DNA of 33,108 nt, from assembly GCF_018853465.1 (NCBI RefSeq), contig NZ_JABBOU010000018.1, positions 1 through 33,108 of the forward strand, given 5' to 3'. This document shows, in pieces, positions 8,621-29,565 of the stretch. The translations under genes were made by a program, and so were the position numbers. The notes under the pieces are model-generated. The model saw nothing but the letters and a program-made list of their open reading frames with translations, searched no databases and was not told where the DNA came from. The stretch's first letter is position 1, and the number at the start of each line of letters is the position of its first letter. The DNA comes from Acidithiobacillus montserratensis (lineage in GTDB: Bacteria > Pseudomonadota > Gammaproteobacteria > Acidithiobacillales > Acidithiobacillaceae).

Positions 8621-10231
8621 TTATTCCAGAGTACGCGAAATCTGCGCGTCTGGATGCACCTGATTCAGAGTGGTTGCCCGGCCCTGCTGCAGATTGTGAC
8701 GGATGGTCTGGGCCTGCTCCCGAATATTGGCTAGCTGGTCGTTAGACAAACGATCCAGATGCTTCCATTGCAGGGCCGTACGCGGATGTGCTCGAAATCT
8801 TTCTTCGTGGGTCTGCAGAAAATCCCAGTACAGCACCGTAAACGGGCAGGCTTTTTCACCCGTGGCCAATTTGGGCTGATAGGCGCAGCCCTGACAATGT
8901 CCGCCCATTTTTTGTAAATAGTTGCCGCTCGCTACATAGGGTTTGGAAGCCATCCAGCCACCATCGGCATATTGGGACATGCCCAACACATTGGGAAGTT
9001 CCACCCATTCCACCGCATCGACGTAAATGGCCAGAAACCAGCGATGAACAGCCTGCGGTTCCACACCCAGCAACAGGGCAAACAGGCCGGTAACCATCAG
9101 GCGTTCAATGTGGTGGGCATAGCCATGGCGAAGAGTGCGTCTTATGGTGTCTTTCAGGCAGGCCATATCGGTTGCCCCGGTCCAGTAGAAGTCCGGCAGT
9201 GGCTGGTGGGCTTGCAGAACATTCTGCTCCAGCCAGTCCGGCATCTGCAGCCAGTACAGGCCATGCACGTACTCACGCCAGCCCAGCACCTGGCGGATGA
9301 ATCCTTCTGCTGAGGCAATTGGCACACGACCCGCATGAAAGGCTTGCGCTACTGCCCGGACAACAGTTTCGGCGCGGAGCAGTCCCAGATTCATGGCGGC
9401 GGAGAGTCGTGAGTGATAAAGCCAGACCTGATCGGGCCAGAAAGCGTCTTGCAAGGGACCAAATGAGGCCAGACGCTGATCGATAAAGTCCTGCAGCGCC
9501 GCTTCTGCTTCCTGGGGAGTCACCGGCCAGTCAAAGTGTGCGAGGCTGCCTGGATGCTTAGCAAACTGCGCGTCGATTTGCGCCATCACCTCAAGGGTTA
9601 TCGCATCCGGCGGAAAACTCAGTGGTTCAGGAATCCAGCCCGGACCCTGGGGGCCGGGGCGCTGACGGTTCTCCTGATCATAATTCCAGCGTCCGCCAAC
9701 CGGTTGACTATTTTCCATGAGGATGCCGGTTTTCTGGCGAGCATAACGATACCAGAATTCCAGACGCAGCTGCCGGTAGGATTTTGCCCATTCGGCAAAT
9801 TCGGAAATCGAAAATAGAAAATTGTGATGGCGGCGTTCCTGCCAGGGAATTCCCCGTCGCTCGGCACAAGTGCGCAGAGTTTCGCGTAACTGCCAGGTAC
9901 CCGGTCGCAGGCTGATGATCTGCTGCGGTTGCCAGCGCTGCAAGGTGTCGTCCAATGCTTCCGCCAGGCTCTGGTAGGGGTGGCTGCCCAGAGTCAGATA
10001 TTCCAGAGGAAATCCCCTTTGCCGCAAGCTTTCCGCATGATGGCGCATGGCACTGAGAAAAAGGGTGATGCGGGCTTTATGGGACCAGACGACGGTGGAT
10101 TCTTCAGGTACTTCAGCCATCCAGCAGCAATCTTGTTCCGGATCAAAATCTGTGAGAACCGCGCTCTCGGGATCCAGATGATCGCCGAGAATGACGACGA
10201 GGTGACGAATGATACGCTCAGGATCGGGCAT
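8621..10231 (-). CDS. FeS-type cryptochrome/photolyase (FeS-BCP, (6-4) photolyase-like)
   Basis: A 536-residue member of the photolyase-related family that contains a [4Fe-4S] cluster; characterised members such as Agrobacterium PhrB repair (6-4) photoproducts. The N-terminal domain LVVILGDHLDPES begins a Rossmann fold. The C-terminal FAD domain has GYAHHIERLMVTG with the family's His pair, and four candidate cluster cysteines: one in MACLKDT, then GHCQGC and KACPF, spaced C-x2-C-x12-C as in PhrB. The ATG at 10231 is preferred because a longer in-frame start at 10294 would lie inside DUF2256, whose 3' end overlaps this gene by 14 bases. Expression probably depends on the shared operator at 10390-10418. 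Confidence 0.93.
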   Translation of the reverse strand: MPDPERIIRHLVVILGDHLDPESAVLTDFDPEQDCCWMAEVPEESTVVWSHKARITLFLSAMRHHAESLRQRGFPLEYLTLGSHPYQSLAEALDDTLQRWQPQQIISLRPGTWQLRETLRTCAERRGIPWQERRHHNFLFSISEFAEWAKSYRQLRLEFWYRYARQKTGILMENSQPVGGRWNYDQENRQRPGPQGPGWIPEPLSFPPDAITLEVMAQIDAQFAKHPGSLAHFDWPVTPQEAEAALQDFIDQRLASFGPLQDAFWPDQVWLYHSRLSAAMNLGLLRAETVVRAVAQAFHAGRVPIASAEGFIRQVLGWREYVHGLYWLQMPDWLEQNVLQAHQPLPDFYWTGATDMACLKDTIRRTLRHGYAHHIERLMVTGLFALLLGVEPQAVHRWFLAIYVDAVEWVELPNVLGMSQYADGGWMASKPYVASGNYLQKMGGHCQGCAYQPKLATGEKACPFTVLYWDFLQTHEERFRAHPRTALQWKHLDRLSNDQLANIREQAQTIRHNLQQGRATTLNQVHPDAQISRTLE

Positions 10232-10379
10232 CGGTCGGATTCCTGGCTGAACGCTTTTGTTTTCGACAGGCGGCAGAGCAGTACAGTACTTCATCCCAGC
10301 AGCGTCGCCAGCGTTTGCGCCAGGTGAAGGAGCGATGACAAATCACACAGATTTTTTCTTCCATGATACGTTGTACCAT
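10218..10379 (-). CDS. DUF2256 zinc-ribbon mini-protein, first gene of the photolyase operon
   Basis: A 53-residue protein found by reading the minus strand just upstream of the photolyase. It contains EKICVICHRSFTWRKRW, then RRCWDEVLYCSAACR, the DUF2256 signature with four metal-binding Cys (C-x2-C and C-x3-C) and the WRKRW/CWDEV core. DUF2256 genes are commonly next to photolyase-related genes; the function is unknown. The ATG at 10379 has AAGG about ten bases upstream; an ATG at 10364 is an alternative. Its TGA (10218-10220) lies inside the photolyase start region, so the two are translationally coupled. Confidence 0.88.
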   Translation of the reverse strand: MVQRIMEEKICVICHRSFTWRKRWRRCWDEVLYCSAACRKQKRSARNPTDARS

Positions 10380-10389: not shown

Positions 10390-10418
10390 TATACAAAATG
10401 AGAAATTGTATAGTACAA
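10390..10418 (-). promoter_or_regulatory. LitR-type operator in front of DUF2256-photolyase (TTGTAC + TATACA-N11-TGTATA)
   Basis: Read on the minus strand: TTGTAC (10418-10413), then TATACA (10412-10407), eleven bases, then TGTATA (10395-10390), followed at once by AGG of the ribosome site. The two hexamers form an inverted repeat. The pattern fits T(G/A)TACA...TGTA(C/T)A, the form I recall for Pseudomonas LitR-class regulators, but with an 11-base rather than a 12-base spacer. The same element precedes the divergent flavoprotein gene. A protein bound here would cover the transcription start region. Confidence 0.75.
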
Positions 10419-10667: not shown

Positions 10668-11987
10668 ATGCGCATTGCCATCATTGGGGCAGGCATTTCC
10701 GGTCTGGGGGCGGCCTGGATATTACGGAAAACCCATGAACTGACTGTTTTTGAGGCCGCAGATTATGCCGGAGGCCATACTCATACGGTGGATGTGCAGC
10801 AACAGGGGCTGTCGGCACCGGTGGATACGGGGTTTCTGGTATTCAATGATCGCACCTATCCCCATCTGCTGGGGCTTTTCGCCGAGCTGGATGTACCCTG
10901 GACCGCCAGCGATATGTCGCTCAGCGTGCGCCTTCCGGCACTGAATCTGGAGTGGTGCGGCTCCAGTCTCGGTACCCTTTTTGCGCAAAAAAGAAATGCC
11001 TTGCGTCCCGCATTCTGGGGCATGCTCAAGGACATTCTCCGCTTCAACCGCGCAGCCCTGGCCTGGTTGAATCAGAGCGATGCGGACATCACTCTGGGAG
11101 AGTTTCTGGAAAGGGGGGCTTACGGTGAGTGGTTCAGGAGCGCCTACCTGCTGCCCATGGCCGCCGCCATCTGGTCGTGTCCGACCGGGACCATGTTAGC
11201 TTATCCGGCGCGGTCTATCCTGACGTTTTATCGCAATCATGGGCTTTTGCAGATTTTTAATCGTCCGCAATGGCGAACGGTGCTGGGCGGAGGGCGTGAA
11301 TATGTGCAGCGTATCATCCGGGATCTGCCGGATCTGCGTTTGAATACGCCGGTGGAAGCTTTACGCCCCGATCGTCAGGGCGGCGTCTTGGTTCAGTACG
11401 CTGGCGGCCGGGAAGAGCACTTTGATCAGGTCATCTGTGCATTACATGGGGATCAAGCCAGGGGGTTGCTCGGCGAGCACTGGCCTGCCCAGAAAGCGGC
11501 GCTGGCGCATTGCCAGTATCAGGACAACATCGCGTATCTGCATGGGGATGAACACTTTTTACCCAAACGCCGCAAGGCCTGGGCGGCCTGGAATTTTCAC
11601 GAAGAGGGTGTTGCTGATGCTCAGCGTTCTGTAGCAGTTACTTACCTGATCAACCAGTTGCAGCCTTTGCCTTTCACTACACCGGTAATGGTGACCTTGA
11701 ATCCGCAACAAGCACCGGATCCCGAAAAAACCTGGGCACAGTTTCATTACGCCCATCCGGTTTTTGATCACGGAGCGCTGGCGGGTCAGGAAGCCATCCG
11801 CCGTCTACAGGGCGCTGATGGACTCTGGTTTTGTGGCGCCTGGCTGGGTCATGGGTTTCACGAGGATGGCCTGCGCAGTGCGGTAGAAGTCGCCAATCGC
11901 ATGGGTATTCGTGCGGCCTGGCAGCAACAGGAGAGTTCCGTTTCTGAACCCCGGATGGAAATATGCCCAGAACACGCCCTACGTTAA
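10668..11987 (+). CDS. FAD-dependent oxidoreductase, COG2907 family (amine-oxidase fold)
   Basis: A 439-residue flavoprotein with the N-terminal dinucleotide motif IAIIGAGISGLGAAW and the second-strand FEAADYAGGHTHTVDV. The C-terminal FAD motif is LWFCGAWLGHGFHEDGLRSA. COG2907 proteins almost always sit beside DUF1365 and a Cfa-like methyltransferase; in Rhodobacter, members of this gene set belong to the singlet-oxygen regulon and have been tied to furan fatty acid formation. Action on an acyl chain in the membrane, such as desaturation of a methylated fatty acid, is therefore plausible but inferred. AAGGAG lies six bases before the ATG. The 3' end overlaps DUF1365 by 25 bases. Confidence 0.9.
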   Translation: MRIAIIGAGISGLGAAWILRKTHELTVFEAADYAGGHTHTVDVQQQGLSAPVDTGFLVFNDRTYPHLLGLFAELDVPWTASDMSLSVRLPALNLEWCGSSLGTLFAQKRNALRPAFWGMLKDILRFNRAALAWLNQSDADITLGEFLERGAYGEWFRSAYLLPMAAAIWSCPTGTMLAYPARSILTFYRNHGLLQIFNRPQWRTVLGGGREYVQRIIRDLPDLRLNTPVEALRPDRQGGVLVQYAGGREEHFDQVICALHGDQARGLLGEHWPAQKAALAHCQYQDNIAYLHGDEHFLPKRRKAWAAWNFHEEGVADAQRSVAVTYLINQLQPLPFTTPVMVTLNPQQAPDPEKTWAQFHYAHPVFDHGALAGQEAIRRLQGADGLWFCGAWLGHGFHEDGLRSAVEVANRMGIRAAWQQQESSVSEPRMEICPEHALR

Positions 11988-12730
11988 CAGGTGGACTTTT
12001 GTTGGGGCGGGTCATGCACCGGCGCCTGCAACCCCCGCGTCCTGCTTTTCATTATCGCACGTTCAGCATTTGCTTCGATCTGGATGCGCTGCCCCTTTTG
12101 CAAAAGGTGCTTTCTCGCTTCAGTCCCCTGCGTTTTTATAATCGTGATCACGGTCCCCGGGACGGCTCTGCTTTGCTGCCCTGGATTCAGGGATGCTTTG
12201 CCGAGCAGCAGATTCCTGCCAGCCGCTATGTGCTGGTTACCTACCCACGTCTTTGGGGCTATGTATTCAATCCAGTCAGTTTTTGGTTGGGACTGGATGA
12301 AAACGACCAGATTCGCGGGGTGCTGGCAGAGGTCAATAATACTTTTGGCGAGCACCATAGTTATCTGCTCGCCCACGCAGATCGCCGGATTATTGGGCAG
12401 GGAGACTGGTTGACAGCGGACAAAGCCTTCCATGTATCACCGTTTTTACCTGTAGAAGGGCAATACCGTTTTCGGTTTCGCCTGCAAGAACAGAGTTTTC
12501 ATGCGGATATTCATTATCTGGATGCGGCTGGCGAACCCTGTTTGCTTACCCGGATAGCGGGAAACCGGCAGACGCTGAGTTTGCCCAAGGTATGGAGAGC
12601 GGTGTTGCGACAGCCCTTCATGACTTTTTCCGTGGTCTTTTTTATTCACTGGCAGGCTCTGAGGCTCTGGCGTGCCCATATCCCCTTTCACAAAAAACCG
12701 GAACCCCCGCAGCAGGAGATCAGTTTATGA
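11963..12730 (+). CDS. DUF1365 family protein
   Basis: A 255-residue protein with the family marks GRVMHRRLQPPRPAFHYRTF near the start, then FYNRDHGPRDG, YPRLWGYVFNPVSFW and EVNNTFGEHHSY. A hydrophobic stretch FMTFSVVFFIHWQALRLW near the C terminus suggests membrane association. DUF1365 has no settled biochemical function. Its constant company is the COG2907 flavoprotein and a Cfa-like methyltransferase, so it is probably a partner in fatty-acid modification. It overlaps the genes on both sides (25 bases, then ATGA), indicating tight translational coupling. Confidence 0.9.
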   Translation: MPRTRPTLTGGLLLGRVMHRRLQPPRPAFHYRTFSICFDLDALPLLQKVLSRFSPLRFYNRDHGPRDGSALLPWIQGCFAEQQIPASRYVLVTYPRLWGYVFNPVSFWLGLDENDQIRGVLAEVNNTFGEHHSYLLAHADRRIIGQGDWLTADKAFHVSPFLPVEGQYRFRFRLQEQSFHADIHYLDAAGEPCLLTRIAGNRQTLSLPKVWRAVLRQPFMTFSVVFFIHWQALRLWRAHIPFHKKPEPPQQEISL

Positions 12731-13944
12731 GCACCGTGTTTGATAATCGCCGCGTTCCTGTGAACAGGCTGCCCCGTTCTGCACAGACCTTGCTGAAAAT
12801 GCTGGAAGGAATGGGTTGCGGACAGTTGACTCTGAAAACCCCGGAAGGGGAGATCATGCAGTTTCAGGGGACAGAATCGGGCCTGCACGCCGATTGGGTC
12901 ATTCATGACTGGCGCATTTTATCGTGCTTGGCTCGGGATGGAGATATCGCCTTTGGTCGCGGATACATGGAAGGCTTGTGGGAGAGCAGTGATCCGGTCG
13001 CCTTGCTGCGTCTGGCCATTGCCAATCGGGCTATGGTCGAAAAATATGTTGAAGGTTCATGGTCCCGGCGACTGATATTTACTCTTTTGAATCGTTTGCT
13101 ACGCGCCAATACCCGGCGAGGTAGCCGCCGTAATATCGCTTTCCACTATGATCTGGGCAATGATTTTTATCAGCTCTGGCTGGATAACAGCATGACCTAT
13201 TCCAGCGCTCTCTATGATGGAGAAGATGCCCTGAGTCTGGAGGCTGCCCAGGAAAAAAAATATGCCCGCGCCTTGAATGCATTGAATCTGGCTCCGGGAG
13301 CGCGGATTCTGGAAATTGGCTGTGGTTGGGGTGGTTTTGCCGAATATGCAGCGCGCTGCGGATATTTTGTCCATGGTATCACCCTATCCACCGAGCAGTT
13401 GGCTTTTGCCCGGGAGCGTTTAAATCGCAAGGGACTGGATCATTTCACGGAGTTTTCTCTGACGGATTATCGCGACATGCAGGGCCATTACGATGGCATT
13501 GTCTCGATCGAAATGCTCGAAGCCGTAGGGGCTGAGTGGTGGCCCAGTTATTTTCAGCAACTTCGGCAGTTGTTGCGACGCGGCGGGCGAGCCCTGATCC
13601 AGAGTATTACCATTGCCGACGAACGCTTTTCCGCTTACCAGAAAAGCTCTGATTTTATCAGGCATTATGTCTTCCCCGGGGGTATGCTGCCGGCGCCGGC
13701 GCGACTTCTGGCAGAAATCCGTGCTGCAGGTTTGCAGATGATTGAACGCAAAGACTTTGGTCAGGACTATGCACGGACCTTACAGCTATGGCGACAGCAA
13801 TTTGACAGGCAGGAAGAAGCCATTGAGGCGCTTGGTTATGACCCGGTTTTTCGCAGAATGTGGCGTTTTTATCTGATGTACTGCGAGGCGGGTTTTGCCG
13901 AGAGTGAAATTGATCTGACTCAGGTGACGTTGTCCCATGGCTAA
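12727..13944 (+). CDS. cfa: Cyclopropane-fatty-acyl-phospholipid synthase family methyltransferase
   Basis: A 405-residue SAM-dependent methyltransferase acting on unsaturated phospholipid acyl chains. The SAM motif is ARILEIGCGWGGFAEYAA, with NDFYQLWLDNSMTYSSALY before it. VSIEMLEAVGAEWW and the active-site segment DFIRHYVFPGGMLP follow, all as in Cfa. In this gene neighbourhood the product may be a methylated (furan-precursor) rather than a cyclopropane fatty acid, as for UfaM; sequence alone does not decide. The ATG at 12727 overlaps the DUF1365 stop as ATGA, with AGGAG upstream; an open extension further upstream is shadow reading inside DUF1365. Confidence 0.93.
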   Translation: MSTVFDNRRVPVNRLPRSAQTLLKMLEGMGCGQLTLKTPEGEIMQFQGTESGLHADWVIHDWRILSCLARDGDIAFGRGYMEGLWESSDPVALLRLAIANRAMVEKYVEGSWSRRLIFTLLNRLLRANTRRGSRRNIAFHYDLGNDFYQLWLDNSMTYSSALYDGEDALSLEAAQEKKYARALNALNLAPGARILEIGCGWGGFAEYAARCGYFVHGITLSTEQLAFARERLNRKGLDHFTEFSLTDYRDMQGHYDGIVSIEMLEAVGAEWWPSYFQQLRQLLRRGGRALIQSITIADERFSAYQKSSDFIRHYVFPGGMLPAPARLLAEIRAAGLQMIERKDFGQDYARTLQLWRQQFDRQEEAIEALGYDPVFRRMWRFYLMYCEAGFAESEIDLTQVTLSHG

Positions 13945-14473
13945 GCTACTCATTTTTTTGTGGCTATTGTTGCTCAGTCCGCTGGCCTGGGCAAAACCGC
14001 CCCAGGTGTCCTTGCCGGCGGCGGTGAAAACCGCCGAGCCTGATTTGCATTTGTTGGGCGCAGGACATCTGAACTGGTTATTTTTCAACGTCTATAATGC
14101 GGCACTCTGGGTGAGCGGCAGTGATTACACGCCGACCCAGCCATTTGCATTGGGAATAGACTATGAGCGGAGCTTCAGCAGTCACGAACTGGTAAAAACT
14201 TCGCTGAAAGAAATGCGTCGGCTGGACGGTCTGAGTCCTGCGCAATTGACCCGATTTCAGACGGACCTGAAAAACGCCTTTCCGGACGTGAAATCCGGGG
14301 ATCAGATTGTGGGTTTATGCGTGCCCGGAAAATATACTGCTTTTTATTATAATGGCATTCTGCACAGCAAAATTAATGATCCGCAATTCTGTCCGGACTT
14401 TTTTGCCATCTGGCTGAGTCCCCGGACCCAGGTGCAGGGCTTGCGGAAAAATCTGCTGGGCAGGCATGAATAA
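13937..14473 (+). CDS. Chalcone isomerase-like exported protein
   Basis: A 178-residue protein with an N-terminal signal peptide (LLIFLWLLLLSPLAWA) and then the chalcone-isomerase-like fold used by many proteobacterial periplasmic proteins: GHLNWLFFNVYNAALWVSG, IDYERSFSSHELVKTSLKEM, and a closing FFAIWLSP segment. The bacterial members are thought to bind fatty acids or other small molecules rather than to isomerise chalcones. It overlaps cfa by eight bases and the MFS gene by eight bases, so it belongs to the same operon and may handle modified acyl groups in the periplasm. Confidence 0.85.
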   Translation: MAKLLIFLWLLLLSPLAWAKPPQVSLPAAVKTAEPDLHLLGAGHLNWLFFNVYNAALWVSGSDYTPTQPFALGIDYERSFSSHELVKTSLKEMRRLDGLSPAQLTRFQTDLKNAFPDVKSGDQIVGLCVPGKYTAFYYNGILHSKINDPQFCPDFFAIWLSPRTQVQGLRKNLLGRHE

Positions 14474-15758
14474 AGTTCAGCGGCAGGATGTTCCTTCCTT
14501 CAAAACTCTCCTGCTTTATGCGCCATTGGGAATGCCGCTGGCTTTTGGCGCACTGCCGGTTTATTTGCTGATTCCCCATCTGTATGCCAAAAATTTTGGC
14601 CTTTCTCTGAGTTTACTGGGTGTCATTTTGCTGGCGGTACGTTTGCTCGACGCCCTACAGGACCCGCTGATCGGACTTTGGAGTGACCGTTGGGCAGAAC
14701 ATCATCAAGGGCGCCGGGTGCTGATTCTCCTGGGTATACCGGGGATGATTCTGGGTTTTTACGGACTTTTCAATCCGTGGCCGGGAATGATCTGGCTCAG
14801 TCTGTCTTTCTCGTTGATCATTTTTTATCTGTTTTTCAGTGTTACCAGCGTCAACTATCAGGCTTTGGGAGCAGAATTATCCCGGGATTACAATGGCCGG
14901 ACCTGGCTCACCACCAGTCGTGAGGCGGGAGCCTTGGTGGGCGTACTGCTGGCTGCTGCCCTGCCGGATCTGTTGATGCAGCAATGGGGCAGAGTGCATG
15001 GCCTGGAAATATTTGCGGGTATTTTTGCCCTGTTTTTGGTACTGGCCGTGCTGCCTTTGCAAAAACCCGGCATGCAGCGCCCGGTCGTTGGTGAAAGACT
15101 CCCCTGGTGGGGCTTTTTTGCAGCGCTGAAGCATAAGCCATTACGGCACCTACTGATTATTTATTTGCTTTCACAATCCGCCAATACCGTAGCCGGAACG
15201 CTCTTTTTCTTTTTTGTGGATGAAATACTCGGCGCACACTCGCTGGCCCCTCTGTTTCTGTTAGCCTATTTTCTTTCGGGAGCATTAGGCATGCCTTTAT
15301 GGTTATGGCTATCGGGACGTTTCAGTAAAAGTTTGGCCTGGCGCCTGTCGATGTTCGTCGCCATCCTGGCATTTTTAGGTGCTTTTTTTCTTCGCTCGGG
15401 TGATGTTTGGCCCTATGCCCTGATTTGCGTGCTGACAGGGCTGACTCTGGGAGCTGATCAGGCTCTGCCACCGAGTCTTCTGGCCGACCACAGCGACCAG
15501 GATAAGCGCAGTCGTCCGGGAAGTTATTTCGGTTTGTTCAATTGGGTAGGTAAGGCAGCCACCGCTTTGGGGGCCGGCTTGATATTGCCATTATTGCAAG
15601 GCTTGGGCTATTCGGCAGGACAAGATCTTTGGGCTTTATCTTTTTGTTATGCGCTGGTGCCAGCACTGATCAAAATATTGGCCATTATTCTCATGGGTGT
15701 CTGGTCCGTAGAGGGTCGGAATTCTTTAGTTCCATTATTGGGAGGTTATCATGAATAA
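14466..15758 (+). CDS. MFS transporter of the GPH/MFS_2 type
   Basis: A 430-residue membrane protein with about twelve hydrophobic segments. The loop RLLDALQDPLIGLWSDRWAE is the signature of the glycoside-pentoside-hexuronide branch, the same branch as MFSD2-type lipid transporters. GPH-type members are a regular part of Cfa/DUF1365/COG2907 operons. Movement of a lipid or lysolipid is possible, but the substrate is unknown. Its start overlaps the previous gene, and its last bases overlap the DUF3833 gene. Confidence 0.87.
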   Translation: MNKVQRQDVPSFKTLLLYAPLGMPLAFGALPVYLLIPHLYAKNFGLSLSLLGVILLAVRLLDALQDPLIGLWSDRWAEHHQGRRVLILLGIPGMILGFYGLFNPWPGMIWLSLSFSLIIFYLFFSVTSVNYQALGAELSRDYNGRTWLTTSREAGALVGVLLAAALPDLLMQQWGRVHGLEIFAGIFALFLVLAVLPLQKPGMQRPVVGERLPWWGFFAALKHKPLRHLLIIYLLSQSANTVAGTLFFFFVDEILGAHSLAPLFLLAYFLSGALGMPLWLWLSGRFSKSLAWRLSMFVAILAFLGAFFLRSGDVWPYALICVLTGLTLGADQALPPSLLADHSDQDKRSRPGSYFGLFNWVGKAATALGAGLILPLLQGLGYSAGQDLWALSFCYALVPALIKILAIILMGVWSVEGRNSLVPLLGGYHE

Positions 15759-16341
15759 AATACAGCAAATAGTCGGTTTATCATTGGTCATGGCCTTGGC
15801 CGGTTGCGCGACGCAGCCCCAGGAATATGCGCAAAGTCGGCCAAAGTTCGATCTGAAGACCTTTTTTAATGGCCCCCTGATGGCCCAGGGCGTATTTGAA
15901 AATCGTTCAGGAAAGGTCGTTAATCGTTTTGTGGTGCGCATGATGGGTACCTGGCAAGGTAATCAGGGTACTCTGGTGGAAAATTTCACCTATTTTGATG
16001 CCGCCGGCAAAAAAACCTATCAACAACGGGTTTGGCATCTGACTGAAACCAGTAACCATCATTTTGTGGGTAGTGCCGAAGGTTCAGCCGGCAATGTGGC
16101 CAAAGCTTCTGGAGATGCCTTTGGTTTCGCTCTGCACTGGTCCTACGATGTGCGCCAACCGGTGGGCAAAACCTTTTATAACCTCCATGCCAATGACTGG
16201 ATGTATATGATTACTCCGAATACGGTCATGGATCATACCGATGTGACCTGGTACGGACTGCATGCCGGAAATATTTTTCTGGAAATGCACAAACTCCCTG
16301 ATACCGCTGAAAATCGGGCAAAAGTAGCGGAAGTGAAATAA
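15751..16341 (+). CDS. DUF3833 lipoprotein
   Basis: A 196-residue protein with a type II signal peptide ending in the lipobox LAGC (Cys19), so it is probably anchored in a membrane facing the periplasm. The DUF3833 core includes FFNGPLMAQGVFENRSGKVV, GTWQG, RVWHL, VGSAEGSAGNV and NDWMYMI. The function is unknown. A ribosome site GGAGG precedes the ATG. It is the last gene of the rightward operon and ends two bases before the convergent permease. A second copy without a lipobox lies at 22240-22794. Confidence 0.88.
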   Translation: MNKIQQIVGLSLVMALAGCATQPQEYAQSRPKFDLKTFFNGPLMAQGVFENRSGKVVNRFVVRMMGTWQGNQGTLVENFTYFDAAGKKTYQQRVWHLTETSNHHFVGSAEGSAGNVAKASGDAFGFALHWSYDVRQPVGKTFYNLHANDWMYMITPNTVMDHTDVTWYGLHAGNIFLEMHKLPDTAENRAKVAEVK

Positions 16342-16343: not shown

Positions 16344-17720
16344 TTATTCATCGACCACGTCGATGATTTGATGCAGTTTCCGGGGTTGGTAGCGTGCCCA
16401 TAGCAAACCCCGGATAAATATGATGATCACCAACAGCACAAAAAGCACGCTGGCAACACCTTCTCCCCCGGTTGGTAAAGGCCATAAACTTACTTGCAAA
16501 ACTTTCAGCAGGAGCGGCAGGGAAATCCCGGAAATTATCAGGCTCAACCAGCGCCAGGAGTGTTGCTGACGAAACAAAAACAGCGGCGTGGCAATGTTGG
16601 CAAGGCTATAAATCAGCAGAAAAGCCAGTCCGGTAAAAGTGCCAAACGTCCCCACAACGGACAATATCGAAAACTGGGCAATGCTGACTACTATCGTACT
16701 GGTAATGACCAGCAGGGCCAACAAGCCCAGGGCGCGGGTCGGCGTATGGTGCAGCGGGTGGCGAAAATGCAGATAAGGGCTGATGACCTGATGCCCGGCC
16801 ATACTGAATAAAATCCGGGAAATGCTGTTGAGGGTGGCAATGGTTGCGGAAAAAGCGGCGGTAGCCATGGCTAAGTCCGAGAAGATGCCCAGCCAGGGTT
16901 TGCCAATGGCCTCGGCTATGCGGTTGAGTGGTGCCGGGCTGTTGCCAATAGCCGAAGGAATATGGGAAAAAGCGAGAATTTCGATATAGGCCATGGCTAC
17001 AAAAAAGATCCCCACCATGCCCACGGAAAACAGCATCACCTTGGGGATGGCGGTGCGGGCCGCCCGGGTTTCTCCGGCGAGATTGCCCGCTGTTTCAAAG
17101 CCGCCATAAGCCAACAGGGATAAAATCAACGCCTGGGTAAACGGGCCTTGCTGTAGTTGCGAAAAATCCCATTGATGGGGGTCGCGCCAGCCATAATGTC
17201 CCAGGGTGAAGGCGGCGATGAGGACAATGCAGGCGATCGAAAAAATCTCGACCCACAGCCCCCAACGGGCGGAAATTTCAATCCCGCGCCGTGCCAGCCG
17301 CCAGGCAACGAGTAGATAAAGCAGAGCGATCACCGCAATCCAGCCGATACCCTGAACCGGCCATAAGAATGCCAGCGCCTGCTCCAGGAACAATCCTCCC
17401 AACAGCGGGGCGGCTGCCAGAGCACCGAAATAACCGGTAATCATGACAAAACCTGCCACCATGCCGGCGATGGGATGTAAGGCCTTGCCGAGATAAAAAA
17501 ACAGGGAGCCGGGAGAAGGAAAATGCCGGGCAAGAATGCCAATTTGCACAGCCACCAGCAACATCAATAAGCCGATGACACTATAGGCCAGCCAGGTAAA
17601 ATTGCCGCTGTGCATGGCCACTAGCGAAATAGTCACAGCGGGCATGGCTGACGGGGTAATGTTGGCAACGGCATGCCCCCAAATTTCACCGGGGCTGACA
17701 GATGCGGCTTGGGAGCGCAT
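16344..17720 (-). CDS. APC superfamily amino-acid permease
   Basis: A 458-residue inner-membrane protein with about twelve hydrophobic helices. Helix 1 includes GHAVANITPSAMPAVTIS, and helix 6 contains LILSLLAYGGFETAGNLAGE, which resembles the unwound substrate-binding helix of APC permeases. It lies 70 bases downstream of the PYP ligase gene in the same direction. A perfect -10 hexamer in that gap suggests it can also be transcribed on its own. The substrate is unknown. The placement next to PYP genes makes an aromatic amino acid or acid worth testing, as the source of p-coumarate, but this is speculation. Confidence 0.85.
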   Translation of the reverse strand: MRSQAASVSPGEIWGHAVANITPSAMPAVTISLVAMHSGNFTWLAYSVIGLLMLLVAVQIGILARHFPSPGSLFFYLGKALHPIAGMVAGFVMITGYFGALAAAPLLGGLFLEQALAFLWPVQGIGWIAVIALLYLLVAWRLARRGIEISARWGLWVEIFSIACIVLIAAFTLGHYGWRDPHQWDFSQLQQGPFTQALILSLLAYGGFETAGNLAGETRAARTAIPKVMLFSVGMVGIFFVAMAYIEILAFSHIPSAIGNSPAPLNRIAEAIGKPWLGIFSDLAMATAAFSATIATLNSISRILFSMAGHQVISPYLHFRHPLHHTPTRALGLLALLVITSTIVVSIAQFSILSVVGTFGTFTGLAFLLIYSLANIATPLFLFRQQHSWRWLSLIISGISLPLLLKVLQVSLWPLPTGGEGVASVLFVLLVIIIFIRGLLWARYQPRKLHQIIDVVDE

Positions 17721-17755
17721 GGGGATGATTACTCACGATTCGGAAATGAGCAAAA

Positions 17756-17761
17756 ATTATA
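17756..17761 (-). promoter_or_regulatory. Possible -10 element of the permease gene
   Basis: On the minus strand a perfect TATAAT lies 36 bases before the permease ATG. The hexamer 17 bases further upstream, TTCGCT, matches the -35 consensus poorly. An internal promoter is plausible but weakly supported. Confidence 0.4.
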
Positions 17762-17790
17762 GGGGAGCCAGCCACAAAAGCGAAAGAAGT

Positions 17791-19101
17791 TTACGCCGGC
17801 CAGTTTTCATACAACCAACGCCGGCTGGGTTTGCCCTGGGGGGCCGGCGCCTGTGCCCAGAATGTCTGCTCGGGAATCTGCAACAAATATGGCTCTTGCC
17901 ATGCACGGATGAAAGCGGCTTTTTGCGCTTCTGATACTTTCACGACGGCATGTAAATGACGCGCCCCTGGAGCACCGAGGACAATGCTTTCTGCTTCGGG
18001 ATATTGGTCCATCAAGCGCGACTCTTCCACTTCGGGGCGGACGCTGTTCCCATCAGCAAGGCTGAATCCGCCGTCCTCCCGTCCTAACCAGTACAGGCAG
18101 CCATCAGGATCCTGTCGCACTTCATCACCACTGTTTCGCCAGCCTTGGGGCTGGAGCATGGGCAGCCAACCCGTCATGCCCAAATACGCATCTGCCTGCC
18201 CCGGAGATTGATAATGCAGAGTTTCTCCGGCAATGGTGCATTGCACGAGAGGGTATCCCAGCATAAAAGGCGCAAACTCACCGGGGTGTCCCAGGGTAAT
18301 GCCCGGTCCGGCTTCGGTTTGTCCATACCCGACCCGGAGCTTGCTGCCCTGAAGCTGTGCTGCCAGTCGGTCACCAATGGGCGCACCACCAATGATGCCT
18401 CCTTCGAGGGCGTGTATCTGTTGCTGATCAAGCAAGCGGGCAATGCGCGGAACGGTGCAAAGATGGGTGCAGTCTGGAGGCGTGGAACGGCTACGCTGGG
18501 TTTCTACCCGAATGACGCTGCCCGCCATGCTGGCAGTCAGTAATTCCAGTACCCCGGCAAAAACATGCGCCCAGGGCAGGGTATTCCAGAACAGACTTTC
18601 GGTACTTGGCTGCAGTGCTGGCAAATGGGTGTCCATCTGCCATTGCAGGGCGGCAAAACTCAAACGGTAAGCGTTTCCCGCCCCCATGCTGCCCGAGCTC
18701 CACATAATCAGCGCGGCATCCTGATCCTCTTGGGTATGGCCGTTACAGGGGATTTCCTGCAGACGCTGCGCTGAATAATGGATCCACAAAGCCGGTTGAA
18801 GCCTTTGCAGACGTCGCCGGGTTTCTCGGGGATGGAGTTTAGGCAAGGGACAAAAAGTCCAGCCACCCATCCAACAAGCCAGCATGTAGGCCACATAGGC
18901 CGGACTGTTGGGAATGTTGACGGCAACTCGTGCGCCGGGAAGCAGTTTGCTGCGACGCCAGCGGGTTTTGATGCGCGCCGCTCGAGCCCAAAGCGCCTGT
19001 CCGGGCCAGGCATGACTAGCACCGTTATGGTGCCAGTCCAAGGCAAAGCCCTGATGCATGCCCGCAGCCAATCGCTGCAAAAAAGCATCGCGATCGGTCA
19101 C
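17791..19101 (-). CDS. pcl: AMP-dependent ligase, probable p-coumaroyl-CoA ligase for the PYP chromophore
   Basis: A 436-residue, compact ANL-family enzyme. Visible core motifs are the phosphate loop WSSGSMGAGN (residues 134-143), GYGQTEAG (258-265), SGDEV with Asp326, GREDGG with Arg341 and a C-terminal catalytic Lys424 in QGKPSRR. The phosphate loop lacks the usual Pro-Lys. PYP needs p-coumaroyl-CoA to load its thioester chromophore, and a short ligase of this kind beside pyp is the known arrangement (pcl) in PYP bacteria, so the specificity is inferred from context. It begins with GTG two bases after the 104-residue gene. No tyrosine ammonia-lyase is in the window. Confidence 0.8.
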   Translation of the reverse strand: MTDRDAFLQRLAAGMHQGFALDWHHNGASHAWPGQALWARAARIKTRWRRSKLLPGARVAVNIPNSPAYVAYMLACWMGGWTFCPLPKLHPRETRRRLQRLQPALWIHYSAQRLQEIPCNGHTQEDQDAALIMWSSGSMGAGNAYRLSFAALQWQMDTHLPALQPSTESLFWNTLPWAHVFAGVLELLTASMAGSVIRVETQRSRSTPPDCTHLCTVPRIARLLDQQQIHALEGGIIGGAPIGDRLAAQLQGSKLRVGYGQTEAGPGITLGHPGEFAPFMLGYPLVQCTIAGETLHYQSPGQADAYLGMTGWLPMLQPQGWRNSGDEVRQDPDGCLYWLGREDGGFSLADGNSVRPEVEESRLMDQYPEAESIVLGAPGARHLHAVVKVSEAQKAAFIRAWQEPYLLQIPEQTFWAQAPAPQGKPSRRWLYENWPA

Positions 19102-19103
19102 CG

Positions 19104-19418
19104 TCAGGATACCAGATCTTCGGGCATCTCTCTCAACAGGCGCCGGAGCTGATCACGAAAGTCGACGGAAATGTCCTCTTCATTCTGGCGAATTTCGCGA
19201 TCAACCATCTGCAGCAGCTGCACCTGTTCGGCGCTGAGAAATTGTTGTCCATCCTGTTGAAAGGCATTGTTCAACATCTGCCAAAGGCTGTTCAGGCAAG
19301 CATGATAAAGCTGTTTTTGTTCCTGGTGGATTTCCGGAAGATCGGCCACTGCGTGCAACAGCTCATCGACATACGCCAGAAAATGGGTAATCACTTTAGT
19401 TTCTGCGGGCATCGTCAT
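19104..19418 (-). CDS. Unknown 104-residue helical protein between pyp and pcl
   Basis: I do not recognise this protein. It appears almost entirely alpha-helical, acidic and soluble, with no signal peptide or membrane segment. Runs such as ITHFLAYVDELLHAVADL and FRDQLRRLLREMPEDL could form a helical bundle or coiled coil. Its ATG shares one base with the PYP stop codon (TGATG), and its own stop lies two bases before the GTG of the ligase, so it is made together with both. This makes it a candidate PYP partner, for instance an adaptor between PYP and the divergent regulator, or a helper for chromophore loading. No evidence beyond position supports either role. Confidence 0.75.
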   Translation of the reverse strand: MTMPAETKVITHFLAYVDELLHAVADLPEIHQEQKQLYHACLNSLWQMLNNAFQQDGQQFLSAEQVQLLQMVDREIRQNEEDISVDFRDQLRRLLREMPEDLVS

Positions 19419-19822
19419 CAGCCAAGATCCTCATAAAGCTGGATAATGCGATCAATGAAAATAAAAAAAAGCGGACTCTTGCGGACGTTGAAAAACATAT
19501 GAACATGTGCAGAAACCGGGCGGATACGATAGGTGAATGTATAATAAAAATGAGTGTCCATGATCTCATCCTTGAGGCCTTGACGAAATCGGCCCCGAAA
19601 CAGTCGGCTGGCAGTACAGGGCGCGACTTCGGTAAAAAAGTTTCGACCCAGAACGTCTATGGTGCTGAGTCCGCTGAGACGTGATTCTGCGGCATTGAAA
19701 ATTTTCACTAGAGCATGATTGTCCAAGGCAATAATGCCAAAGCCTTGTCGATCAGCCATGGTCGCGGTGATCTGTTCAGGATGGTTCAGTATATCGTCTG
19801 CAACAAAATTTTTGGCTAACAT
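19418..19822 (-). CDS. pyp: Photoactive yellow protein (PYP)
   Basis: A 134-residue PAS-fold blue-light receptor that carries p-coumaric acid on a cysteine. It aligns with Halorhodospira PYP without gaps around the chromophore: GRNFFTEVAPCT places Cys at residue 69, FNAAES places Glu46, and YYTFTYRI gives Tyr94 and Phe96. Differences at key places are Phe42 (Tyr), Ser50 (Thr), Leu52 (Arg) and Ile100 (Met), which should alter colour tuning and slow dark recovery. AAGGA precedes the ATG. It heads a coupled operon with an unknown gene and the likely ligase, divergent from a LitR-type regulator. A chromophore-free PAS protein is the alternative, but Cys69 and the ligase argue against it. Confidence 0.92.
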   Translation of the reverse strand: MLAKNFVADDILNHPEQITATMADRQGFGIIALDNHALVKIFNAAESRLSGLSTIDVLGRNFFTEVAPCTASRLFRGRFRQGLKDEIMDTHFYYTFTYRIRPVSAHVHMFFNVRKSPLFFIFIDRIIQLYEDLG

Positions 19823-20051
19823 TCACGTTCCTTGGACAAAGTGAGTCTGTCAGGAAGAGCGATTCCTGCGTCACTGTCTTGCCTTGCTCGCGGATTGCCC
19901 CCAGAATTTACATAACTCATAGGCATTCCTGAGTATTTGTGTGACCATGGAGTAAACAAGTTTGTACAGGAACCTCCATGGCGACGATAGGGTAGATTAC
20001 TGTTCAGGATTCATATGTCAATAATACGTCATATACAAAAAGGGAACATTG
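19823..20051. promoter_or_regulatory. Divergent pyp / LitR-type regulator promoter region with nested inverted repeat
   Basis: This 229-base gap must hold both promoters. At 19945-19952 and 19974-19981 lie perfect 8-base arms CCATGGAG and CTCCATGG around a 21-base centre, which itself holds ACAA-GT-TTGT and a TGTACA hexamer (19963-19968). Another TATACA (20032-20037) stands right before the AAGGG ribosome site of the regulator, in the place the second half-site takes at 10390 and 10652, but no matching first half-site lies 11 bases upstream. Autoregulation through these sites is plausible. No confident -35/-10 pair was found for either gene. Confidence 0.55.
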
Positions 20052-20963
20052 GTGGATATCAGTACGGATGAAGTGGATGTGCCGCAATTTCCAATCAGTG
20101 TGGTTGAGCAGGAAACCGGTATTTCCAAAGAATTGTTGCGCATGTGGGAGCGCCGTTATGCCTTTCCCGTGCCCGGTCGGGATCTGGCAGGTAACCGTTT
20201 GTACAGCCGTGCCCAGATAGACCGATTGCACCAGATCAATCGACTGCTGGCAGCAGGCTATCGGCCGGGAGCTGTAGTCGGTGCCGATGCCCAAAAAATC
20301 GAGAATTTGGTGGCCGAAATTCCCTTGCCGTCAACAGCTCCTCGAGAGGATCCTGAAACTCTGGCAGAAGCCTTAACAATGCTCGCTTCTGATCGGCCTG
20401 AACGGTTGTTGAGTTATTTGCGTCGCCAGCTCCAGCAGGAGGGCCTGCCGCGCTTCATATTACAGGTTGCAGCGCCGTTGTTGCAGCGTGTGGCCCGTGC
20501 CCGGCTCATGGGAGAAATTCAGCCTTATCGGGAGGCGTGTTTTCAGGAATTGTTGAGAGAGTGTCTCTACGTGGCTACCAGTCAGCTTCCGGTTGGTGCA
20601 GCGCGTCTGCGCGTTTTGTTGGCGAGTTTTCCGGGGGAGGGGCGCTCCCTGGAGTTGCAGATGACCCGGGCCTTGCTGATGGGGGAAGGGGTGGATGTCC
20701 TGTTTATTGGACCGGAGCCGGAACTGGATGATCTCCTGGCGGCAGCAGAAGCCTGCCATGTTCAGGTCATTCACATGGCTATATCGGCGGCATCTGTCAA
20801 TCTGCAGAACCGCGAGCTTTTGCAGGATTTGCAGCAGCGTATTCCACCTGGCATTACCCTGTGGTTGGGTGGGAGTGGCTGTCTGGAGCTGGGAGTGGCA
20901 GGGGATGAATCCTGTTTTGTGCGCCTGCAGGATATGTTGAAGGCAATACGCGAATGGTCGTGA
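20052..20963 (+). CDS. MerR-family regulator, LitR/CarH type without cobalamin-binding signatures
   Basis: A 303-residue protein. An N-terminal MerR winged helix (about 12-75) carries LLRMWERRYAFPVPGRD, the hallmark of the LitR/CarH subgroup. A helical region (about 105-175) and a Rossmann-like B12-binding-type domain (about 185-282, RLRVLLASFPGEGRSLELQ) follow. In light-sensing CarH/LitR the helical part has W-x9-EH and the Rossmann part an E-x-H-x2-G motif; here the equivalents read GEIQPYREA and GEGRSLEL without the Trp and His. It therefore probably does not bind B12 and needs another light or redox input. GTG at 20052 is chosen for its spacing from AAGGGA; TTG at 20049 is possible. It is divergent from pyp. 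Confidence 0.85.
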   Translation: MDISTDEVDVPQFPISVVEQETGISKELLRMWERRYAFPVPGRDLAGNRLYSRAQIDRLHQINRLLAAGYRPGAVVGADAQKIENLVAEIPLPSTAPREDPETLAEALTMLASDRPERLLSYLRRQLQQEGLPRFILQVAAPLLQRVARARLMGEIQPYREACFQELLRECLYVATSQLPVGAARLRVLLASFPGEGRSLELQMTRALLMGEGVDVLFIGPEPELDDLLAAAEACHVQVIHMAISAASVNLQNRELLQDLQQRIPPGITLWLGGSGCLELGVAGDESCFVRLQDMLKAIREWS

Positions 20964-20978: not shown

Positions 20979-21029
20979 AGCTTTTGTCCAGTACAAAAGC
21001 TTGACAGCATAACGGGCATGTTCTAAATT
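20979..21029 (+). promoter_or_regulatory. Inverted repeat and sigma-70-like promoter before the hdrA-like gene
   Basis: Perfect 9-base arms AGCTTTTGT (20979-20987) and ACAAAAGCT (20993-21001) surround five bases. The last base of the second arm is the first base of a consensus -35, TTGACA (21001-21006). A TAAATT -10 follows after 17 bases (21024-21029). A regulator bound to the repeat would touch the -35, as activators of this kind do. The repeat could also form an RNA hairpin after the upstream regulator gene, but no T-run follows, so a terminator is less likely. Confidence 0.65.
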
Positions 21030-21060: not shown

Positions 21061-22116
21061 ATGGCAAATACCGATTCAGTATTAGTTGTAGGGGCAGGTC
21101 CGGCGGGTCTTTCTGCAGCAGCAACGATAGCTTCCATGGGTAAAAAAGCGGTCATCATCGAAAAAGAAGATGTCCTGGGCGGGGCACCCATCATATCCGG
21201 ATATGCCCGCTTGGTGCCTTCCGGAGAATGGGCTAAGGATGCTATTGGTCGTATGGTCAGCAGGGTAACGGGTAATAAAAATGTTTCCATTCACACCTCT
21301 ACCAAAGTGACTGATTTCAGTGGCGAACCCGGTCAATTTACAGCAACTTTGAGTTCTGGAGAAAAAGTTGAAGCAGGTGCGGTGGTCCTCGCTACAGGAT
21401 TTACGCATTTTGATTCCATCAACAAACCGGAGTGGGGGTTTGGCACCTACGAAGATGTGTTAACCACTACACAGATGGAACAAATGGTAGCAACGGGGCA
21501 GATACGCTGTCCCTCAGATGGGCGGGTTCCTGAGCGTGTGGCTATTTTGCTTTGCGTAGGCTCTCGTGATCGGCAAATCGGCAGAGAATGGTGTTCCAAG
21601 ATCTGTTGCACGGTATCCACCAATCTTGCCATGGAAATCAAGGAAATATCTCCAACCACTGATGTATTTATATATTACATGGATATTCGTACTTTCGGAT
21701 TGTACGAAGACAAGTTTTATTGGAAAAGCCAAGAAGAGTTCAAGACCAAATTTGTGAAAGCGCGTATTGCTGAAGTAACCAAATCTCCTGATGGTCGTTT
21801 ATTGGTTAAAGGCGAAGACACATTGGTCAAAAGACCCATCGTTATCCCCATGGATATGGTGGTTCACGCCATTGGTATGGATCCTAATGCACTCAACCCG
21901 GAAATTTCCAAGGTCTTTGGCATCGGTCTGGAAAAACACGGTTTCATTGATCGAGCAGAACAATACACCAATACCCAGGGTACAACGCGCAGAGGAATCT
22001 ATGTATGTGGAGCGGCAACTGGTCCGGAAACTATTGATGATTCCATGGCCCAGGGCCAATCCGCAGGAGCCCGGGCGGTTGCCGATCTATACCAGCTCTT
22101 GGCTGTCTCAGCTTGA
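21061..22116 (+). CDS. hdrA: HdrA-like flavoprotein (sulfur-oxidation sHdr type), isolated gene
   Basis: A 351-residue protein with the FAD motif VVGAGPAGLSAAATIASMGK, the conserved LCVGSRDRQIGREWCSKICC (Cys165, Cys178, Cys182, Cys183) and YYMDIRTFG, then a C-terminal FAD segment RRGIYVCGAATGP. This matches the short HdrA of the sHdr complex of sulfur oxidisers, where it carries FAD and an Fe-S cluster and handles lipoate-bound sulfur. The usual partners (hdrB, hdrC, tusA, dsrE, lbpA) are absent from this window. It has its own promoter upstream and a terminator downstream, so it is a single-gene unit. It may be a second copy; the link to the neighbouring regulator is unproven. Confidence 0.83.
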   Translation: MANTDSVLVVGAGPAGLSAAATIASMGKKAVIIEKEDVLGGAPIISGYARLVPSGEWAKDAIGRMVSRVTGNKNVSIHTSTKVTDFSGEPGQFTATLSSGEKVEAGAVVLATGFTHFDSINKPEWGFGTYEDVLTTTQMEQMVATGQIRCPSDGRVPERVAILLCVGSRDRQIGREWCSKICCTVSTNLAMEIKEISPTTDVFIYYMDIRTFGLYEDKFYWKSQEEFKTKFVKARIAEVTKSPDGRLLVKGEDTLVKRPIVIPMDMVVHAIGMDPNALNPEISKVFGIGLEKHGFIDRAEQYTNTQGTTRRGIYVCGAATGPETIDDSMAQGQSAGARAVADLYQLLAVSA

Positions 22117-23553: not shown

Positions 23554-24288
23554 TCAGCTTGTCACCAATGGCCGAATGGCGGTGAACCCACCATCGACCG
23601 ATAGTATCTGGCCGGTAATTTGTCGCTGCTGCAGTAAAAAGATAATGGCTTCAGCTACCTGAACCGGATCAATCAATTCCCCGAGAGGATATTGTCGCTG
23701 CGCCATATCCCTGGCCTGAGAGTTTCTTAAAATATGGCTTGCTGCTGAGCTATCCATCAGTCCGGAACGAACTGCATTAATGCAGATACCGTCGCGAGCA
23801 TGGGTGGCTGCGGCCGCCATGACCAGGGACTCAAGACCACCTTTGGCAGCAGCGACGGCCTCATGAAAAGCGACGCCGATGTCAGCTACTACGGAAGACA
23901 CAAAAACAGCATTACCTTCAGTATGATTTTTACGCAGGAGAGCCACAAAAGCCTTGAGCATGAAAAATGCAGAATCCAGATTTGCTGCCAGGCATTGCCG
24001 ATATTGAGTTTCAGAAGTCTGGGCCAGGCCTGCAAGTAAAAATGAACCTGCCAGATGCACAAGATACTCCGGTGTTTCGTTACGCTCCCTGAAAAACTGC
24101 GTCACCATATCCACCCCGGCCACGCTTGAAACATCAGCTTGGATTCGGGTGATATCTGCTGTTTCTGGCAGGGTAAAATCTTCCTTGCGGCTCACCGCTA
24201 ATATTTGCCATTCATGTTTTGCCGCTAATGGTATGAATACATCAGCCAAGGCGCCGGAAGCACCCGTCACGATCATCCAGGGTTTCAT
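23554..24288 (-). CDS. SDR-family protein lacking the catalytic Tyr
   Basis: A 244-residue SDR fold with the cofactor motif TGASGALADVF and the family's end segment GQILSVDGGFTAIRP. Where classical SDRs have Tyr-x3-Lys it reads AVAAAKGG, so Val stands in the Tyr position while the Lys remains; the Ser strand reads VFVSSVVADIG. It may be a non-catalytic or altered SDR. GGGAGAAG precedes the ATG. It is convergent with the other SDR, with one base between the stop codons. Confidence 0.83.
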   Translation of the reverse strand: MKPWMIVTGASGALADVFIPLAAKHEWQILAVSRKEDFTLPETADITRIQADVSSVAGVDMVTQFFRERNETPEYLVHLAGSFLLAGLAQTSETQYRQCLAANLDSAFFMLKAFVALLRKNHTEGNAVFVSSVVADIGVAFHEAVAAAKGGLESLVMAAAATHARDGICINAVRSGLMDSSAASHILRNSQARDMAQRQYPLGELIDPVQVAEAIIFLLQQRQITGQILSVDGGFTAIRPLVTS

Positions 24289-25841: not shown

Positions 25842-25901
25842 AGATTTTGCTGAGTTACTGGTATTCAGGTCGTAGATATTTCTTGATTGGAGGAAATGCA
25901 G

Positions 25902-27317
25902 ATGGGTCATAGCCCGAAAGATGTACTGAAGTTGATCAAAGAAAAAGATGTCAAGTTCATTGATTTCCGCTTTACCGATACCAAGGGCAAGGAACAGCAT
26001 GTGTCCGTCCCTTCCCACACCATGGAAGAAGATACCTTCGTGGAAGGCAAGGCCTTTGATGGTTCCTCCATCACCGGCTGGAAAGGCATCAATGAATCCG
26101 ACATGATTCTGCTTCCCGATCCTGATTCAGCGGTGCTGGATCCCTTCACCGATGAAGCGACTCTGAATATCCGTTGTGATGTGATCGAACCCGCCACCGG
26201 CCAGGGTTACGAGCGCGATCCCCGTTCGGTAGCCAAGCGCGCTGAAGCCTACCTGAAAAGTACAGGCATTGCCGATACTGCCTATTTTGGTCCGGAAAAC
26301 GAATTTTTCGTATTTGATTCCGTAACCTGGAACATCGACATGAGTGGCTGCGGATACAAGGTGGATGCCGAGGAGGCTGCCTGGAATTCCGGCAAGGAAT
26401 ATGAGTCCGGCAACATGGGGCACCGCCCCGGTGTCAAGGGCGGATATTTCCCGGTACCCCCGGTGGACTCTGCTCAGGATCTGCGTTCTGCCATGTGTCT
26501 GGCGCTGGAAGAAATGGGTTTGAAGGTGGAAGTGCATCACCACGAAGTGGCGACCGCCGGTCAGCACGAAATCGGCGTGGGCTTCAGCACCCTGACCCGC
26601 AAGGCGGATGAAGTACAGATTCTGAAATATGTCGTCCACAATGTGGCGGCAGCTTATGGTCAGACGGCCACTTTCATGCCCAAGCCCATTGTTGGAGATA
26701 ACGGCAGCGGCATGCATGTCCACCAGTCTCTGGCCAAAGACGGCAAGAATCTGTTTGCAGGCGACCTTTACGGCGGCCTGTCAGAGCTGGCGCTGTACTA
26801 CATTGGTGGTATCATCAAGCATGCCAAGGCCATCAATGCCCTGACCAATCCCAGCACCAACAGCTACAAGCGTCTGGTTCCCCACTATGAAGCCCCGGTG
26901 TTGCTGGCCTATTCGGCCAAGAACCGTTCTGCTTCCATCCGCATTCCCTTCGTCAACAGCCCCAAGGCCCGGCGTATCGAAGTCCGTTTCCCAGATTCCA
27001 CCGCCAACCCCTATCTGGCTTTTGCAGCCATGATGATGGCCGGACTCGACGGTATCCAGAACAAGATTCATCCCGGCGATGCCATGGACAAGAATCTCTA
27101 TGATCTGCCCGCCGAAGAACAGGCCAACATTCCGGGTGTCGCTGCTTCTCTGGAAGAAGCCTTGCGGGCTCTGGAAGCGGACCACGAGTTCCTGATGAAG
27201 GGTAATGTGTTCTCCCAAAGCTGGCTGGAAGGTTATCTGGATGTGAAATGGGCGGAGGTGCAGGCCCTGCGCGTCACCACCCATCCGGTGGAATTCCAGA
27301 TGTACTACAGCCTCTGA
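25902..27317 (+). CDS. glnA: Glutamine synthetase type I (GlnA)
   Basis: A 471-residue cytoplasmic enzyme that makes glutamine from glutamate, ammonia and ATP as a dodecamer. Motifs are [42 protein letters not shown], the ATP-binding segment [18 protein letters not shown] and the adenylylation site [10 protein letters not shown] with the regulatory Tyr, so it is probably controlled by GlnE. GGAGG sits eight bases before the ATG at 25902; an ATG at 25896 is too close to it. The upstream region has NtrC-like sites and a sigma-54 promoter, and a terminator follows. Confidence 0.98.
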
Positions 27318-27359
27318 GCAGAAGCGGGCGATCCTGCCCGCCGTTGTGCAACGGTAAAA

Positions 27360-28015: not shown

Positions 28016-28030
28016 TTCCAGCGCATAAGG

Positions 28031-29563: not shown

Positions 29564-29565
29564 TC

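Follow-up and report, generated by a model that had tools for sequence, protein, structure and literature searches.

Which protein a single-domain photoactive yellow protein (PYP) signals to is called an important gap by a 2025 survey, whose Table 2, in the part of the text available, includes no MerR regulator (PMC12826048). The question is raised again, together with that of the source of the chromophore, by a 33,108-nucleotide stretch of Acidithiobacillus montserratensis (contig NZ_JABBOU010000018.1; hereafter the window), in which a pyp gene lies next to a gene for a LitR-type regulator. The answer that we favour on balance, by analogy with a light-oxygen-voltage (LOV) system of Pseudomonas, is that illuminated PYP would act as the anti-repressor of a B12-blind LitR controlling the adjoining photolyase and furan-fatty-acid genes. 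Three features make LitR the sensor's likely output: its blindness to B12, its exact co-occurrence with pyp and its position beside the photolyase/furan-fatty-acid cluster. The genes at the centre of this proposal are:

19418..19822, minus strand: pyp, single-domain photoactive yellow protein homolog of 134 aa, identified by profile and PDB sequence matches
19104..19418, minus strand: u104, 104-aa helical protein with no assigned family, coupled to pyp
17791..19101, minus strand: compact AMP-forming (PF00501) ligase, proposed chromophore-acid ligase
20049..20963, plus strand: LitR/CarH-type MerR regulator (TTG start), CarH-like fold without the B12-binding Trp/His; proposed PYP effector

The coordinates, gene order and translational coupling given in an initial annotation of this DNA were correct, as was its placing of a LitR-type regulator divergent from pyp. 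As first gene of its operon, pyp shares one base with u104 (TGATG). Two bases separate the u104 stop codon from the GTG start of the ligase, and a permease gene starts 70 bases beyond the ligase; litR diverges from this operon.

PYP and its ligase

The initial annotation had called the 134-residue protein a PYP retaining Cys69, Glu46, Tyr94 and Phe96, to be checked by a hidden Markov model search, and both the search and the residues uphold it. The protein matches NCBIfam TIGR02373 (photo_yellow) with 91 bits (E 5.8e-26) as well as 33 distinct PDB sequences (E 8.2e-21 to 1.3e-11), all of them PYPs, Ppr PYP domains or PYP-derived tags; judged by these matches it is a PYP homolog, identified far above chance. 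Its score lies under the curated equivalog cut-off of 143.05, which makes it a divergent homolog outside that equivalog. Comparison was extended to 29 Acidithiobacillaceae genomes, 17 of them in the window's own genus and including the window's own genome (G000; 2.83 Mb in 178 contigs, 100% complete). In an alignment of the 13 PYPs of this family, the four residues named above are invariant, and so are the pocket residues Phe62, Val66, Ala67 and Pro68. All of them have Phe at position 42, Ser at 50 and Leu at 52, and so lack the Tyr42 common among PYPs; across PYPs, Tyr42 is found in 90.8% and Phe42 in 8.9%, the latter being a minority state that is not defining, and two PYPs with Ser50 absorb near 432-434 nm (PMC12826048). 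On the survey's evidence, Ser50 together with Phe42 would put the absorption maximum of these proteins no higher than about 446 nm. All 13 proteins have 65 residues beyond Cys69, ending in EDLG or EDLA. Among 39 PYP loci outside the family, this stretch is 54-60 residues long in 27 and 66 and 79 residues in two; a further four are fusions, and the last six did not enter the comparison. The ratio of nonsynonymous to synonymous substitution rates (dN/dS) is 0.03-0.08 for pyp, 0.06-0.11 for litR and 0.12-0.13 for the ligase in four pairs, indicating purifying selection on each.

The nearest named loci belong to A. marinus (88% PYP identity) and to A. sulfurivorans, Acidithiobacillus sp. HP-2 and A. 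concretivorus (82-83%), in agreement with the sulfur-oxidising host that had been proposed. A contig filed under Phycisphaera has a PYP 82% identical to that of the window and the same gene order. This contig (L002, from a metagenome-assembled genome, MAG, of Phycisphaera mikurensis) carries litR, pyp, u104, ligase and permease in the Acidithiobacillus order with 68-86% identity to the window and is probably mis-binned. Twelve records in a plasmid collection have a PYP-like match, all below 60% identity.

The ligase scores 73 bits against PF00501 and shows, in a 13-row alignment, YGxTE, GD and a C-terminal GK, which we take to be the named motifs of the AMP-binding family. Within the window's own genus, a full-length ligase is confined to the six genomes with PYP; in ten of the others there are no more than weak matches to a generic ligase, and the remaining one (G006) keeps a 37-residue ligase relic. 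Since in the other genera, too, the ligase adjoins pyp in all seven genomes with PYP, the AMP-forming ligase that had been noticed beside pyp is one half of a pair co-conserved in 13 of 13 pyp genomes of the family. Outside the family, relatives of the ligase occur near PYP at one of the 39 loci (L009).

The gene between them, u104, is present at 12 of the 13 family loci, with an internal in-frame deletion in G001 (L098), and has dN/dS values of 0.12 and 0.23 in two pairs, dS being saturated in the other two. Its best Pfam family, Cut8, scores 20.2 bits against a cut-off of 26.2 and NCBIfam gives none; a PDB sequence search returned no match at E 1, and Foldseek none at E <= 0.001 (best E 2.0). 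A role for u104 as a chromophore-synthesis enzyme was dropped, as it has no family over cut-off and no structural match and is lost in G001.

LitR, its B12 site and its co-occurrence with pyp

The family LitR keeps the fold of class I regulators, which sense light through adenosyl-B12 (AdoB12) and are exemplified by Thermus CarH (PDB 5c8d): a MerR helix-turn-helix (HTH), a helical bundle and a Rossmann fold. Unlike these CarH/LitR proteins, it lacks the B12-site Trp and His residues in all 13 genomes, with Arg in place of the cobalt-ligand His and one Glu of the B12 motif retained in some rows; its match to PF02310, at 29.4 bits, is below the cut-off of 32.1. Among more distant LitR database matches, 14 of 17 retain the B12-site Trp/His. 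Judged by these residues, the family LitR falls outside class I and is B12-blind. Its residues place it with class II in having a MerR HTH and no B12 sensing; class II is also defined by a C-terminal domain without recognisable B12 fold, and the family LitR departs from it there.

PYP, LitR and DUF1365 are each present in exactly the same 13 of 29 genomes, and one genome (G021) carries an additional weak, broken second LitR match. PYP and LitR never occur apart, and at all 13 loci pyp and litR are adjacent and divergent. On a dnaK tree of 27 genomes, G011 and G024 having yielded no dnaK match, parsimony gives five changes of the PYP/LitR/DUF1365 set. In G006 all three are missing from the genome and the permease is kept between two lost blocks; the relic stretch holds no litR, pyp or HdrA-like gene. 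At the relic junction (L106, G006:C145:13897-15719), the C-terminal ends of an SDR (SDR1) and the ligase lie about 100 bases apart, with the intact permease adjoining.

Chromophore source, light-protection genes and operator-like motif

A profile of the ammonia-lyases that carry the 4-methylidene-imidazole-5-one (MIO) group (PF00221), which also covers histidine ammonia-lyase and was positive in 5 of 14 known genomes used as a control, found no gene in any of the 29 family genomes, among them 23 at least 90% complete and the window's own. By the same search, no known tyrosine ammonia-lyase was found in these genomes. The same profile is present in 35 of 37 PYP genomes outside the family (39 loci, two of which share a genome, with L032 left out; completeness not given). 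The initial annotation had p-coumarate coming from a gene elsewhere or from outside and proposed a search of the complete genome for tyrosine/histidine ammonia-lyase; that search, in a genome that is 100% complete, rules out a known lyase elsewhere. With PF00221 missing from all 29 genomes, either p-coumarate is taken from outside or formed by some unknown route, or PYP carries a different acid. Uptake of the chromophore acid from the environment is already allowed for by the 2025 survey, in the available text of which 5% of predicted pyp operons include a gene for a lyase and 32% one for a ligase (PMC12826048).

For genus g4, a chromophore pathway encoded between SDR2 and DUF3833 was considered and dropped, the genes there being photolyase, TspO, nitroreductase and others. 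The genes at these g4 loci (L103:12802-16209, L104:1510-7492, L105:3675-5693) are of the light-stress type: L103 and L105 have a DNA photolyase (FAD_binding_7), all three have TspO-like proteins, and L103 and L104 have nitroreductase-like proteins. The families were assigned by Pfam for L103 and for the L105 photolyase, and by sequence likeness for the remainder.

The other features considered in the window are:

8621..10294, minus strand: photolyase-related protein (DPRP), proposed target gene
10406..10418, plus strand: operator-like TTGTATAGTACAA, exact, between the photolyase-related and amine-oxidase-type (UfaD-like) genes
10668..16341, plus strand: furan-fatty-acid type cluster, proposed target operon, with gene starts at 10668 (UfaD-like FAD protein), 11963 (DUF1365/UfaO-like), 12592 (CMAS/UfaM-like), 13937 (Chalcone_3), 14466 (MFS_2) and 15751 (DUF3833)
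16344..17720, minus strand: amino-acid-type permease (PF00324), neighbour only, outside the conserved module
20984..20996, plus strand: operator-like TTGTCCAGTACAA, 2 mismatches, 4 bases 5' of the TTGACA -35-like box of the HdrA-like gene
21061..22116, plus strand: proposed target gene, immediately following litR and encoding an HdrA-like FAD protein
23554..24288, minus strand: SDR-family reductase

A UfaM/UfaD/UfaO-like set, consisting of CMAS, FAD amine-oxidase type and DUF1365 genes, lies in one run at 10668-13944. As UfaO is a DUF1365 protein of the furan-fatty-acid pathway (PMC7380195, from the available text), this run is, by its gene content, a furan-fatty-acid type operon. The set resembles ufaM, ufaD and ufaO of Rhodobacter sphaeroides, which encode a methylase, an FAD protein and a DUF1365 protein, here in an adjoining operon; unlike the R. 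sphaeroides genes, which are under ChrR/sigma-E (PMC7380195), it stands with LitR and PYP.

The permease, listed with the module in the initial annotation, is not one of its conserved parts: it follows the ligase only in loci of Acidithiobacillus sensu stricto, an SDR takes its place in g2 and g4, the other genera with pyp, and it is retained in the pyp-less G006. As an importer of the chromophore it was dropped on the same grounds. The SDR at 23554..24288 was probably once part of the pyp operon, because an SDR directly follows the ligase in the g2 and g4 loci. The stand-alone HdrA-like protein (21061-22116) is 86-98% identical across the 13 loci (partial in some), above its neighbours. In an A. 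marinus-like genome (L094:11334-13517), a transposase-like open reading frame (12019-13338, minus strand), identified by eye, lies between the HdrA-like gene and DUF3833. The flanks of the window are housekeeping genes: the end of hrcA, grpE, dnaK, dnaJ, dapB and a ParA/NUBPL-type NTPase at 28-7121, and glnA, surE, pcm and an rpoS-type sigma factor at 25887-30498. Rfam and tRNA scans of the window gave no match.

We infer that LitR reads a TTGTATAGTACAA-like motif. With up to three mismatches it has nine matches in the window where 2.83 are expected, a number reached by 1 of 100 shuffles; with up to two, the sites at 10406 and 20984 remain, against 0.25 in random sequence. At the promoter of the HdrA-like gene the motif stands 4 bases 5' of TTGACA in all 13 loci, and in each of them no more than 1 in 200 shuffles does as well. 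In a genome-wide search for a 12-mer with up to one mismatch, both sites of G017, G018 and G022 fall at this locus by position. The Pseudomonas-type N12 operator pattern, with up to two mismatches, has only two matches in the window, one of which (10372) is in the photolyase/UfaD gap; the conserved motif, TTGTATAGTACAA, is a different one.

A proposed light switch and its alternatives

The closest known design is that of Pseudomonas mendocina, where PmSB-LOV, once illuminated, binds to PmlR2, a class II LitR, and thereby relieves the repression of a gene cluster that includes phrB and ufaM (PMC9758184, from the available text). In both arrangements a LitR-family protein that lacks B12 sensing stands next to a single-domain sensor of blue light (here judged from the genes alone), photolyase and UfaM genes are the targets (here proposed), and the half-sites are of the TGTAYA kind (PMC9758184). 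With PYP substituted for LOV, the design is consistent with all the conserved genes at the Acidithiobacillaceae loci but u104. Photoreceptor and DNA-binding protein would be separate parts of a two-component blue-light switch. The ligase would activate a cinnamic-type acid, probably p-coumarate, which PYP would hold on Cys69; in the dark, B12-blind LitR on TTGTATAGTACAA-like operators would repress the photolyase, furan-fatty-acid and HdrA-like genes; and blue light would bring PYP into a partly unfolded signalling state that would bind LitR and lift the repression, as PmSB-LOV does with PmlR2. Chromophore, photocycle, PYP-LitR binding and repression by LitR are thus all presumed in this scheme. 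A LitR without its usual B12 light detector suggests that PYP now signals when to switch on the light-protection genes. As a more tentative step, PYP may have replaced the lost B12 sensor as the light-dependent anti-repressor of LitR, with a chromophore acid obtained by an unknown route without MIO lyase, or with a different chromophore.

Other known systems share parts of this arrangement. In Escherichia coli, BluR/BluF likewise pairs a MerR regulator with a separate blue-light receptor, theirs being of the BLUF type and not PYP (PMC9758184). The pyp operon of Halorhodospira halophila (pyp, p-coumaryl CoA ligase and tyrosine ammonia-lyase) likewise combines a Cys69/Glu46 PYP with an AMP-forming ligase in one operon (PMC12826048); the Acidithiobacillaceae loci differ from it in the genome without lyase, the extra u104, Phe42/Ser50/Leu52, the longer C-terminal tail, the divergent LitR and the adjoining photoprotection genes. 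A pairing of PYP with LitR was not found in the open-access literature searched, where PYP and Acidithiobacillus are named together in a single paper, which concerns optical sensing.

Several observations weigh against the proposed switch. The genes are physically linked, so their co-occurrence is inflated and most of the co-losses are not independent. Outside the family, a LitR-like neighbour was found at none of the 39 PYP loci by tblastn and at one by profile (L016), and this sole pairing retains the LitR B12 residues. The motif in the pyp-litR gap of the window is at chance level (83 of 200 shuffles are as good); across the 13 loci it is clear in four, borderline in one (5/200) and at chance in eight. 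One of the five genome-wide sites in G000 is at this locus and a reversed control pattern gives two, and the spacing of the motif differs from the Pseudomonas T(G/A)TACA-N12-TGTA(C/T)A. The canonical phosphate loop with its Lys is missing from the ligase, which has SSGSMGAGNAYRL and variants there instead, and the PF00221 search leaves no known p-coumarate route in the genome.

At L016:3773-5109, in an Acidobacteriota MAG, PYP is divergent from an HTH/B12-binding_2/B12-binding regulator retaining W..EEH and PGEHH. This is one independent pairing of PYP with such a regulator, and it may resemble the state before loss of B12 sensing.

LitR might regulate the pyp operon and the photoprotection genes and yet sense another signal, such as singlet oxygen, redox state or a ligand occupying the former B12 pocket; PYP would then be a LitR target that signals elsewhere. 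The divergent promoter region common to litR and pyp, the retention of the CarH fold including the pocket region, and the response of furan-fatty-acid genes to singlet oxygen in Rhodobacter, where the cluster is under ChrR (PMC7380195), would all suit such an arrangement. We nevertheless regard it as rather unlikely: PYP and LitR are never separate in the 29 genomes, and the other PYP outputs in the available text of the survey (GGDEF/EAL, kinase and methyl-accepting chemotaxis protein; PMC12826048) are not among the conserved genes at these loci. It is also conceivable that PYP carries another acyl group, for example 4-hydroxybenzoate loaded by the ligase, or none, and serves as a chemical sensor or as a light sensor with another chromophore. 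The contrast in MIO lyase (0 of 29 family genomes versus 35 of 37 others) speaks for this, as do the phosphate loop and a ligase sequence far from characterised ligases (best PDB sequence match E 1.4e-8); the eight invariant pocket residues (Glu46, Phe62, Val66, Ala67, Pro68, Cys69, Tyr94, Phe96), the light-protection genes nearby and the occurrence of Phe42 among 8.9% of PYPs (PMC12826048) make it improbable. We give equally little credence to an ordinary light-protection genomic island in which linkage keeps PYP and LitR together while they serve separate pathways. All the genes do lie inside about 15 kb in most genomes, but the shared set changes five times on the dnaK tree, the G006 permease is kept between two lost blocks, and LitR lost its B12 sensing in the same lineage that has PYP.

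Gene order, co-occurrence and loss of the B12 residues thus point to LitR as one candidate partner for a single-domain PYP, and 13 PYP-bearing genomes without lyase directly raise the question of where the chromophore comes from. If illuminated PYP does act on LitR as proposed, PYP would join B12, BLUF and short LOV as a kind of photoreceptor wired to the MerR/LitR family. If its chromophore acid is made or obtained without any MIO lyase, these chemolithoautotrophs would either form p-coumarate by an unknown route or use a different chromophore.

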